DNA from: Thiotrichaceae bacterium
Lineage (GTDB): Bacteria > Pseudomonadota > Gammaproteobacteria > Thiotrichales > Thiotrichaceae
Reading direction: 5' to 3'
Assembly (NCBI GenBank): GCA_027009095.1
Contig: JALVDG010000071.1
Coordinates: 1 to 15,327 of the forward strand
DNA length: 15,327 bases
Of the stretch, positions 6,189 through 14,915 are shown one piece after another. Under the pieces are notes generated by a model. It worked only from the letters and a program-made list of their open reading frames with translations. It made no database searches and was not told where the DNA came from. The translations under genes and the position numbers were made by a program. Each line of letters starts with the position of its first letter. Within the stretch, counting starts at the first letter, position 1.

Positions 6189-7856
6189 ATGTTCAAAAAT
6201 TCTATTAATGCTGTGGCAAATATGGCTGCTTCTTTGCAGACTAATAAAGCGAAGCCAAACAGTAAGAATAGCTCGCCGATGCAACAAATAAATGCATTTA
6301 ATAATAGTGCTTCCCCAGCATTGCCAAAGAATGTTTCCAAGCTTATTTCTCCGTTGATAAATCAGCTGAAAAACACACAAAATCAAACCAGTTCAAATCA
6401 AGCGGGTAGTCAATCAAATACAACAACAGGCACTTCTGGCAATGATCGTTTGGTCGGAACAAATGGGGATGATCAAATTGCAGGTCTTGGCGGCGATGAT
6501 GATCTATATGGTCTAAAAGGTAACGATCGTTTATACGGTGGTTCAGGTCGTGATCGCTTGTATGGTGGTATAGGGGATGATCACTTACACGGCGAGTCGG
6601 GTGATGATCGCTTATACGGTGATGTGGGCAATGATTACCTTAATGGTGGAGAAGGTAAAGATAAGCTGTATGGTGGCAGTGGTGATGATGCACTCTATGG
6701 TGGTGCAGGTAATGATCGCCTCTCAGGATCATCTGGAAAAGACAGTCTTTTTGGTGATGAAGGAGACGATAAGCTCTACGGTGGCAGTGGTGACGATACC
6801 TTAGATGGCGGTAGTGGCAAGGATCGACTTTCAGGCGGGAGTGGTGATGATGACTTGCAAGGTAAAGAAGGAAACGACAAGCTCTATGGTGGCAGTGGTA
6901 ACGATAGGCTAGATGGTGGCAGTGAAAATGATCGTCTCTATGGTGGTAATGGTAATGATTATCTTATTGGCGGAGTAGGGGATGATCGCCTTTATGGTGG
7001 TAATGGTGATGACTACCTTCTTGGCGGTGCATTATCCGCAAGTGCGCCACAAGGTAATAACTACTTAGACGGTGGACAAGGTAATGATACGACCAGTATG
7101 GTGGGTAATTTATCGGACTATCGTATTGAAAAAAATGGTAATACTTTTACTTTAACCAATGAACAAAATGGCAATGTTACCAAAGCCATTAATATAGAGA
7201 AATTTATCTTTGGAAGTAAAACGCTTTCTGAGGGACAACTCTCTAGTTTAGCTGAAAACTATTCACAACTTTCACTCACCTCAGGACAGCAACAAGCATT
7301 AGAAGAATCGATTACCAATAATTATCACAGTCCCATCTTACTAGATGCTGATAACTCAGGTGATATTAGTGAAGGCGATGTGGTGCTTGGTGCTCAATTT
7401 GGTGAGTTATATGAGCTAAGCCAAGCAGATGCCGATAGTTTATTAAATATATCACCAACAGACTCTAATGTTGTTTTACAGCAGGTAGAGAATATTGTGA
7501 ATGATTGGTATCGAACAGATTATACCGATAATGGTTTTTCGACACAGGACTTTGTTTTATCCCCTGATGGACAACATGCCTTTTATACAGCATCGTTAAA
7601 TAATTCATTTAATACGGGGAGTTCTGATTTTACTACCCTTATTGGACACTTCGTGACGGATGCGCTTGGTACTGAAGATAATAATGGTTTCTCTACCAAT
7701 TTATTTAATCAAACACATGATGCTAATACTAGCATTAATGTAGAGTTCCAGGGTTTTGTGGGTAATGATGAAGTCTCTTATAAAATTACAGAGTCTACAC
7801 CTGGGCAAGCCGATGTTGTGACTGACTTGCTTTATAATTATAGAACCAATCAATAA
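6189..7856 (+). CDS. RTX calcium-binding repeat protein, probably secreted by a type I system
   Basis: Protein of 555 residues. Residues 1-80 are Asn/Ser/Gln-rich, with no signal peptide. Residues 81-278 are 22 uninterrupted nonapeptides of the GGxGxDxLx type (for example GGSGDDTLD), which fold into a calcium-stabilised parallel beta-roll. A partial repeat follows (GGQGND, 295-300), then the LSDYRIEKNGNTF to INIEKFIFG stretch that commonly follows RTX arrays. Residues 386-397 (DADNSGDISEGD) match an EF-hand loop, with Asp at position 12 instead of the usual Glu. The last 150 residues contain no enzyme motif I recognise. RTX proteins normally leave the cell through a type I ABC exporter using a C-terminal signal and fold in extracellular calcium. 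No exporter genes are in the window. GGAGG precedes the ATG. The role is unknown; adhesion, surface layer or matrix function is possible. Confidence 0.9.
   Translation: MFKNSINAVANMAASLQTNKAKPNSKNSSPMQQINAFNNSASPALPKNVSKLISPLINQLKNTQNQTSSNQAGSQSNTTTGTSGNDRLVGTNGDDQIAGLGGDDDLYGLKGNDRLYGGSGRDRLYGGIGDDHLHGESGDDRLYGDVGNDYLNGGEGKDKLYGGSGDDALYGGAGNDRLSGSSGKDSLFGDEGDDKLYGGSGDDTLDGGSGKDRLSGGSGDDDLQGKEGNDKLYGGSGNDRLDGGSENDRLYGGNGNDYLIGGVGDDRLYGGNGDDYLLGGALSASAPQGNNYLDGGQGNDTTSMVGNLSDYRIEKNGNTFTLTNEQNGNVTKAINIEKFIFGSKTLSEGQLSSLAENYSQLSLTSGQQQALEESITNNYHSPILLDADNSGDISEGDVVLGAQFGELYELSQADADSLLNISPTDSNVVLQQVENIVNDWYRTDYTDNGFSTQDFVLSPDGQHAFYTASLNNSFNTGSSDFTTLIGHFVTDALGTEDNNGFSTNLFNQTHDANTSINVEFQGFVGNDEVSYKITESTPGQADVVTDLLYNYRTNQ
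6429..7022 (+). repeat. Tandem array of 22 RTX nonapeptide units (27-bp period)
   Basis: The coding DNA repeats every 27 bp for 22 units with no indels. Units share GGTGGCAGTGGTGATGAT-like sequence but differ at many third positions, so the array is fairly old or recombining and not freshly amplified. Nearly identical longer blocks occur around 6663, 6773 and 6878 (each AAGCT, CTC or GTA, then TAYGGTGGCAGTGGT), which could favour copy-number change. Confidence 0.9.
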
Positions 7857-7861
7857 CAATA

Positions 7862-7918
7862 AAAAGGGCGGAGTTTATCCGTATAAATCAGCACTTTTAA
7901 CTCAAAAATCGGGCAAAA
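7862..7918 (+). repeat. Dispersed intergenic repeat, copy B (3' module)
   Basis: A 57-bp stretch beginning AAAAGGGCGGAGTTTAT and ending ATCGGGCAAAA matches 14814-14870 without gaps at 50 of 57 positions. Four of the seven differences fall in or just beside the loop of a small TTTAT...ATAAA hairpin. It lies 5 bp after the RTX stop, between two convergent genes, and is noncoding. Confidence 0.85.
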
Positions 7919-7948
7919 AATATTACCTATTTTCCCCCTTTGCCCGAT
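7908..7948 (-). terminator. Terminator-like hairpin after the RNase T2-lipoprotein pair
   Basis: ATCGGGCAAA (7908-7917) and TTTGCCCGAT (7939-7948) form a perfect 10-bp inverted repeat around a 21-nt loop. Read on the minus strand the stem is followed by a short T run (GATTTTTG), fitting an intrinsic terminator 20 bp after the lipoprotein stop. The plus side has no T run. The left arm is the end of repeat copy B. The long loop lowers confidence. Confidence 0.55.
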
Positions 7949-9709: not shown

Positions 9710-9718
9710 ATCTTTATA

Positions 9719-9790
9719 ACGACTCTATATAATTAGTAACTGCTCAAATTGTACTTTATTTTGTTCGAGTTCAAGGCAAAAGGAGTGAAA
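9719..9790 (+). repeat. Dispersed intergenic repeat, copy A (5' module)
   Basis: About 65 bp ending TTTTGTTCGAGTTCAAGGC then AAAAGG match 14755-14819. The last 41 bp differ at 4 positions and the first 24 bp at 7. Copy A ends in AGGAGTGAAA, whereas copy C continues GGGCGGAGTTTAT. It lies directly upstream of the minus-strand RNase T2 start and must form part of its leader or promoter. Confidence 0.8.
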
Positions 9791-9916
9791 AATTTATCTT
9801 TTCTCATGTCGATGCCAATAGGCGAGACGGATGTTTGCTCTGTTGTTTTGCCCGACTAGCTTATCAGCATCGGCAGTATAAGTTTTGGTGACTGAAAAGC
9901 TGAAGCTTTCACTCCT
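9781..9916. repeat. Inverted repeat AGGAGTGAAA flanking 116 bp inside copy A region
   Basis: AGGAGTGAAA (9781-9790) and its exact complement TTTCACTCCT (9907-9916) enclose 116 bp with no gene. The interior carries TGTTTTGCCCGA (9844-9855), the reverse complement of the TCGGGCAAAACA found at the end of copy C, and a small hairpin AAAGCT-GA-AGCTTT (about 9896-9909) overlapping the right arm. The arrangement suggests a rearranged or distinct member of the repeat family. The rest of the 9710-9978 gap has no recognised gene or clear terminator. Confidence 0.55.
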
Positions 9917-9978
9917 GTTATCAGGAAGTTATTTATCTGAAAAACTATACAAAAACTTTCACTGATATTTGGAACTAA

Positions 9979-10896
9979 TTACCAGTTTAAACTCCGTGTA
10001 CTTTCAAAATAATGTTGATTACCCGTAATCGGGTCTGTAAATGCGATAGATTTTGCTAAAAGCTGTAATGGCTGACTAAAATCATCCCCTTTACAGGGTA
10101 GTAATATTGGATAAAAAGGATCATTTAAAATGGGACAACCCAAACTAGCAAGGTGAACGCGTAATTGATGCTGTTTACCACTCACAGGTTTTAAATCACA
10201 TAATGCCTTATCATCACGTTGCTCAATAACATCAATGAATGTTTCGGAATTAGGCTCGCCTTCTACCTCTTTCATGCGAAAAAACGGTTCACCTTGTACC
10301 ATTTTACTGCGATGAAGCAGTGGAAAACGAGTGGTCTGAGATGCCTGCATGCTAACAACTGCTTGATAATTTTTATCAATTTTTCGACTTTGGAAAAGTG
10401 ATTGATATAAACCTCGGTTAGATGGATTGATGCAAAACATCACCACCCCTGCTGTTTCTCTATCGATACGATGGATTGGCGTTAGCTCATCGAGTTGGAA
10501 TTCTTTTTTCAGACGCACCAGCAATGTTTGCTGTAAAAATCGCCCCGCAGGGACAACGGGTAAAAAATGCGGTTTATCTGCCACTAAAATATGCTCATCC
10601 CGATATAAAACGGTTGCCTGAAAAGGAATTTCCGTTTCGTGGACTAGCTCACGGTAGTAAAACAGATGAATACCACCACGATAAGGGCTATCGGGTGAGT
10701 AATATTTGCCATTGCTATCAACTAATTCCCCTCGCTGCATACGTCCTAACATGTCATCTTTGCTAATATTAGGAAATTTCTCGCTAAGAAAATCAATCAT
10801 TAAAGACCAGTTTCCCTCTGGTAGCCATACTCGGCTAGCCGTCACACCATCACGAATGGGTAAGGGACTTTTGATGTGATTATTTTTTCGTGCCAT
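9979..10896 (-). CDS. RluA-family pseudouridine synthase, target RNA unknown
   Basis: Converts specific uridines in rRNA or tRNA to pseudouridine in the cytosol. The 305-residue protein has the RluA-family catalytic motif HRIDRETAG, with Asp145 as nucleophile, preceded by YRDEHILVADKPHFLPVVP (98-116), the usual start of the catalytic fold, and followed by the late KQHQLRVHLASLG and ILNDPFYP motifs. Residues about 15-90 (RDGVTASRVWLPEGNW onward) resemble a degenerate S4-like front domain but lack the clear S4 signature of RluC and RluD. The substrate cannot be decided from sequence, so no symbol is given. The ATG lies 3 bp after the nadC stop without a good ribosome site, so it is probably co-translated with nadC. 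No clear terminator follows. Confidence 0.9.
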   Translation of the reverse strand: MARKNNHIKSPLPIRDGVTASRVWLPEGNWSLMIDFLSEKFPNISKDDMLGRMQRGELVDSNGKYYSPDSPYRGGIHLFYYRELVHETEIPFQATVLYRDEHILVADKPHFLPVVPAGRFLQQTLLVRLKKEFQLDELTPIHRIDRETAGVVMFCINPSNRGLYQSLFQSRKIDKNYQAVVSMQASQTTRFPLLHRSKMVQGEPFFRMKEVEGEPNSETFIDVIEQRDDKALCDLKPVSGKQHQLRVHLASLGCPILNDPFYPILLPCKGDDFSQPLQLLAKSIAFTDPITGNQHYFESTRSLNW

Positions 10897-14723: not shown

Positions 14724-14754
14724 GCTTAGCGGGATAAATTGAAAATGAGTCGTA
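14724..14754. other. Gap between cca stop and repeat copy C
   Basis: Short noncoding stretch. TGAGT and ACTCA (about 14746-14762, overlapping the start of copy C) could form a weak 5-bp stem, but no T run follows, so no clear cca terminator is seen. Confidence 0.3.
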
Positions 14755-14870
14755 ACTACTCAGCATAATCGATAACTGCTCAGATTGCGCTCTATTTTGT
14801 TCGAGTTCAAGGCAAAAGGGCGGAGTTTATAAGCATAAATGAGCACTTTTAACGTAGAAATCGGGCAAAA
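14755..14870 (+). repeat. Dispersed intergenic repeat, copy C (most complete)
   Basis: This 116-bp noncoding element joins both modules found elsewhere: 14755-14819 matches copy A (9719-9783), and 14814-14870 matches copy B (7862-7918) at 50 of 57 positions. Its left end contains two near-identical 11-mers, TAACTACTCAG (14753-14763) and TAACTGCTCAG (14773-14783), 20 bp apart. Its right end GGGCAAAA can pair, with G-U pairs, with TTTTGCTT just downstream (about 14883-14890). It lies between the convergent cca and App1-like genes. Confidence 0.85.
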
Positions 14871-14915
14871 CAGGAGGCTAAATTTTGCTTGGGTACTTCA
14901 ATGTCATCGATTTAC

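Follow-up and report, generated by a model that had tools for sequence, protein, structure and literature searches.

The window, a stretch of 15,327 nucleotides from a Thiotrichaceae draft genome, contains three homologous noncoding stretches, and raises the question of what kind of repeat these copies (A, B and C) represent, and whether they are whole elements, remnants or independently moving parts. Copy C is a 3′-truncated copy of a 142-bp MITE, and in our assessment it is probably a truncated IS66-type MITE that carries an ERIC-like hairpin, putatively acting at mRNA ends.

All three copies align to a family consensus built from 29 full copies (Table 1). The likenesses pointed out in the preliminary description are reproduced: copy B (7862–7918) is identical to copy C from 14814 at 50 of 57 positions without gaps, and the 5′ module common to copy A (9719–9783) and copy C (from 14755) has 54 of 65 bases identical. 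The boundary of copy C maps to 14752, slightly upstream of the 14755 given before. According to Pfam, a PolyA_pol/HD gene (cca-like) lies upstream of copy C, an RTX-repeat ORF precedes copy B and a ribonuclease T2 gene adjoins copy A. Behind copy B, an inverted 10-nt arm (ATCGGGCAAA / TTTGCCCGAT, 7908–7948) possibly forms a hairpin following the RTX-repeat ORF. No Rfam family matched the window above its gathering score, and four other loci and the Pleionea locus L204 gave below-threshold matches only.

Table 1 Repeat features of the window
Feature	Position	Strand	Description and basis
Copy C	14752..14873	+	MITE positions 1–122 of 142, right end lost; alignment to family consensus
Outer left end of copy C, GTAACTACTCAG	14752..14763	+	Same 12 bases terminate IS66-family elements in G027/G032
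Inner left end of copy C, here ATAACTGCTCAG	14772..14783	+	20 bp inward of outer end
Hairpin domain of copy C	14787..14878	+	Match to covariance model R1, 96.5 bits
Third repeat family, joined to 3′ side of copy C	14881..14898	+	40 genome matches, control 0
Copy A, remnant	9717..9783	+	MITE positions 2–68; consensus alignment
Second repeat family, takes over where copy A ends	9778..9981	+	Other genomic copies; inverted arms 9778–9803 / 9894–9919
Copy B, remnant	7862..7918	+	MITE positions 63–119; directly after RTX-repeat ORF (6189–7856)

The family is abundant in the host draft genome (2.39 Mb, 461 contigs), as had been supposed from the window, and is present in both orientations. A 22-base core allowing up to 3 mismatches gave 54 + 43 = 97 matches (reversed control, 0), a 16-base end tolerating up to 2 gave 133 + 130 = 263 against 1 + 2 = 3 in the control, where one element may count twice, and copy C with its flanks as query gave at least 52 matching stretches with 40 of 212 candidates scored. 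A full copy measures about 142 bp and comprises, in this order, GTAACTACTCAG, a further 8 bp, GTAACTGCTCAGATTG, the hairpin (about 92 nt) and CAAGCTGAGTAGTTAC; the outer left end is missing from shorter copies (about 122 bp). The elements are short, non-coding, bounded by terminal inverted repeats and present in many copies, as is characteristic of MITEs. Exact 8-bp target-site duplications flank 17 of 42 parsed host copies compared with 1 of 1722 cross-pairings (26/42 and 2/1722 with up to one mismatch), the end-finding script used for parsing under-sampling decayed copies and, by picking the end pair with fewest mismatches, being slightly biased towards duplications. Among relatives, 50 of 58 loci given could be parsed (8 unparsed; the 50 include three that are the same element twice), and 19 of these have exact duplications, 23 with up to one mismatch. 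On either strand the 29 full host copies fold far better than shuffled sequences (mean z −6.6 and −5.1), and in 27 of them the AAGGC strand is the better one; for copy C with its flanks, C being truncated, folding is not above shuffles (z −0.99; 36 of 200 shuffles as good). The earlier suggestion of a non-autonomous, structured and mobile family is upheld.

Variants of the element were also encountered. One 34-bp element (L051:1483–1516) consists of barely more than the two ends, with an exact 8-bp repeat on both sides, and in another (L068, genome G044) the left end is present four times at 22-bp steps. Doubled left ends in other genomes are spaced by about 20, 21–22, 30–32 and also 44 bp. 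An origin of the doubled end by nested insertion, with 8 bp between 12-bp sites, was dropped in view of the 21–22, 30–32 and 44 bp spacings elsewhere; helical phasing is possible, though the copies share descent.

Elements of the IS66 family have GTAA ends and 8-bp duplications, and both are found in the MITE. The preliminary description had proposed to look for matching terminal repeats on a transposase gene; such repeats occur in a sister genus, in IS66-family elements with the same 12-bp ends, and not in the host draft, from which the IS66 domain (PF03050 / DDE_Tnp_IS66) is absent. PF03050 was found in 8 of 15 genomes examined. In genomes G027 and G032, six of eight fetched stretches carry GTAACTACTCAG at both unit ends. 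Exact 8-bp duplications surround the units L130, L131 (which covers a larger unit of 2740 bp) and L136, and, by reading of the flanks, L132; a matching duplication is absent from L133 and L134, and in L135 and L137 one end or both are missing. The 472-aa ORF of L130 contains the DDE_Tnp_IS66 domain. The single-ORF elements thus resemble the MITE in their 12-bp ends and, in several, in their exact 8-bp duplications; however, L130 and L136 (1.46–1.47 kb) encode a transposase and the MITE does not, and only the 12 end bases are shared. An autonomous partner with the ends of the MITE is present in both G027 and G032. We infer that the MITEs were mobilized in trans by a transposase of the IS66 family, which is the likely route of their spread. 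Full-length IS66 genes in the MITE-bearing genomes G028 and G004 (L080, L081) were rejected as candidates, having other ends (GTAAGCG, GTATCCG) and no matching duplications. A REP-like or integron attC-like site was considered as well and not adopted, since GTAAC ends and 8-bp duplications suit a DDE-type element.

The interior of the MITE consists of a long hairpin; its internal-loop motifs are conserved, and its helices covary strongly, with changes on one side compensated on the other. In alignment A2, which comprises 48 of 77 listed hairpins, 94.7% of cells are paired compared with 84.6% after shuffling, and 161 cells show two-sided change compared with 53; the number of pairs with two-sided change (16) is not above that in shuffles (14.2; 81 of 500 shuffles). 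Alignments A4 and A5 give 93.4% and 89.7% paired cells, and covariation of 0.665 versus 0.207 and 0.746 versus 0.211, respectively; both were fitted to the model, and their counts lean towards it. In six loci (L159, L163, L164 of G022, L170 of G033, L175, L177 of G028) an insert of about 45–50 bp, alike between genomes, lies 3′ of the loop.

The hairpin is widespread and occurs within different terminal shells. Of 369 genomes sampled across the class, 58, belonging to 51 of 272 genera and including the host, have a match to covariance model R1. Model R2, built from 50 wider matches, detects the hairpin in 98 of 398 sampled genomes of the phylum, again including the host, and among the matches listed 59 genomes are marked as the same phylum but a different class. 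Among 48 loci of R2 matches, one of which (L219) comes from a genome already sampled, 7 combine GTAAC-type ends with an exact 8-bp duplication and 6 with a duplication that has one mismatch; other shells, recognized by eye, include the GGGAACCTCTGATTAA-like ends in L243 and L245. In Pleionea sp. CnH1-48 (L204:3999–4837) the hairpin core forms a 9.3-copy tandem array of 90-bp units that ends in a single full hairpin. Viral contigs contained no match to the wider core pattern, a 371-base Pleionea stretch gave no match in plasmids or phages, and an exact 25-mer of copy C had no match in named genomes.

The position of the hairpins relative to genes was analyzed in a Vibrio/Alteromonas-like set of 50 hairpins from 17 genomes and three families, made up of 30 returned loci and 20 chosen from the list, with ORFs called mechanically; one genome, G750, had 71 matches, 2 of them examined. 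Two-chromosome layouts suggest that family f184 is the Vibrionaceae. Thirty-six of the 50 hairpins lie 2–15 nt downstream of a stop codon and are oriented so that the mRNA concerned contains the CTGCGTT..CGCCTTG strand, and none lies within 15 nt past a stop in the opposite orientation, where the nearest is at 21 nt; 6 of 50 are found 16–21 nt upstream of a start codon. Judged by alike terminal residues, the same sites recur: dnaK-dnaJ in 7 genomes and the 5′ side of purD in 5, each in two families, as well as glyA (7 genomes), gyrB (4), secA (4), menB (3), ilvC (3) and infB (2). NCBIfam named one protein per site at ten sites. At three recurrent sites, hairpin identity is 0.65–0.97 and gene-end identity 0.75–0.95. 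In the host, 19 of 42 MITEs are within 30 nt of a stop codon, against an expectation of 6.5 for points placed at random between genes, and 6 of 42 are within 30 nt of a start codon (4.4 expected); with 11 sense and 9 antisense relative to the near stop, there is no orientation bias. The hairpin is probably ERIC-like and may act between cistrons or at the ends of mRNAs, where it would tune processing or decay, a role that would make insertion right after stop codons tolerable or useful.

Comparison with ERIC was made using a consensus that we take to be that of ERIC; its matches in 5375 of 5426 E. coli genomes identify it as a real, common repeat, and the E. coli copy between ybhI and ybhJ was used for comparison. 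Like the MITE hairpin, ERIC (enterobacterial repetitive intergenic consensus, RU-1, 127 bp) is intergenic, non-coding and a long hairpin, and on the same strand both appear to carry AAGGCGA, GGAG-helix-UGA and AACGCAG in the same order. The best R2 match in the ERIC stretch, GGAGCUUACAUAAGUAAGUGA, is apical and scores 12.7 bits (E = 0.0063 in 711 bases); R1 does not detect ERIC (10.8 bits, E = 1 in 24 kb). When nine elements were aligned to ERIC, no more than 25 of 2000 shuffles did as well for five of them, and 401 or more did so for the other four, which are thus not nearer to ERIC than shuffled sequences. For 45 Vibrio/Alteromonas-like hairpins the same strand always outscores the opposite one, at a mean same-strand z of only 1.25. 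A blastn search of E. coli with the MITE gave no match, and ERIC sequence over the full length was not found. The comparison suggests that the hairpin and ERIC are probably related, short of proof.

Knowledge of ERIC goes back to about 1990, by the references cited in PMC2759123, a paper of 2007 according to which its transfer mechanism was not known; the same paper describes TA ends and TA duplications, unlike the GTAAC ends and 8-bp duplications of the MITE. At the 3′ ends of Yersinia genes, ERIC is reported to alter transcript levels (PMC10969869, available portion, in which the term IS66 is absent). Repeats under the ERIC name in V. cholerae are said in PMC2267715 not to be predicted to fold, whereas the Vibrio-like hairpins here pair. 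The bacterial MITEs NEMIS/Correia, RUP and Nezha, named in PMC3733652, are likewise short and non-coding with terminal repeats, a likeness by description rather than sequence, and are stated there to be transcribed structures affecting their neighbours. An IS66-derived MITE with this core was not found in the literature searched; most subscription papers lay outside the search, so a prior description is possible.

A broader reading, to which we give somewhat less than an even chance, is that one structural module, with ERIC as a branch, crossed the Pseudomonadota in several unrelated transposon shells, IS66-type MITEs among them, and became fixed in Vibrio/Alteromonas-like lineages, oriented and just past housekeeping stop codons, where it would set mRNA ends. 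If the same hairpin is indeed carried by IS66-type MITEs and stands in one orientation at the ends of the same genes in other bacteria, both its movement and its RNA role can be put to the test, with the questions of which transposase mobilizes it and of its action behind dnaK, glyA, gyrB or secA.

The element could instead be a plain MITE, its hairpin a relic of the symmetry of an ancestral transposon and devoid of RNA function; recent spread and copying between the arms would then have kept the copies alike. The mobile copies with duplications, the absence of orientation bias in the host and the number of A2 pairs with two-sided change, which does not exceed that in shuffles, are all consistent with this; however, the internal mismatch motifs are conserved while the helices covary, and copying between arms would erase mismatches. 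That the hairpins hold fixed positions, in one orientation, next to the same genes of several species also argues against it, so that we consider this explanation unlikely. Still less probable is a function of the hairpin as DNA, single-stranded or duplex, exerted on the AAGGC strand, such as that of a protein or replication site. G-U cells outnumber A-C cells on that strand (179/39 in A2, 143/20 in A4 and 102/35 in A5), which favours it as the pairing strand, and this strand is antisense at Vibrio-like gene ends; both points speak for a DNA role and, with the lack of orientation bias in the host, count against the mRNA-end reading. A single near-invariant pair nevertheless supplies 48, 41 and 43 of the G-U cells in A2, A4 and A5, respectively, and the nearness to stop codons points to transcripts.

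The proposal in the preliminary description that the module moves as two separate halves drew on the fact that copy A ends and copy B begins at the same six bases, and we now regard it as very improbable. The duplications surround whole elements, and copies A and C run into other repeat families at such sites: copy A into the second family at AAAAGG (9778–9981), and the 3′ end of copy C into the third, which has 40 matches in the genome and none in the control. In five other copies of the second family the first matching query base is likewise 79, and in one it is 80; the third repeat is found in the middle of a 105-bp element in L033. The joins of A and C to other repeats fall at CAAAA runs, and microhomology joining is inferred from this. 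Copies A and B are remnants and not mobile halves; in our reading of copy C as a truncated MITE, A, B and the 3′ side of C would be decayed MITE copies fused to other repeats. The second family (9778–9981) has inverted arms of 26 nt, and part of it (query 186–250) recurs alone elsewhere in the genome.
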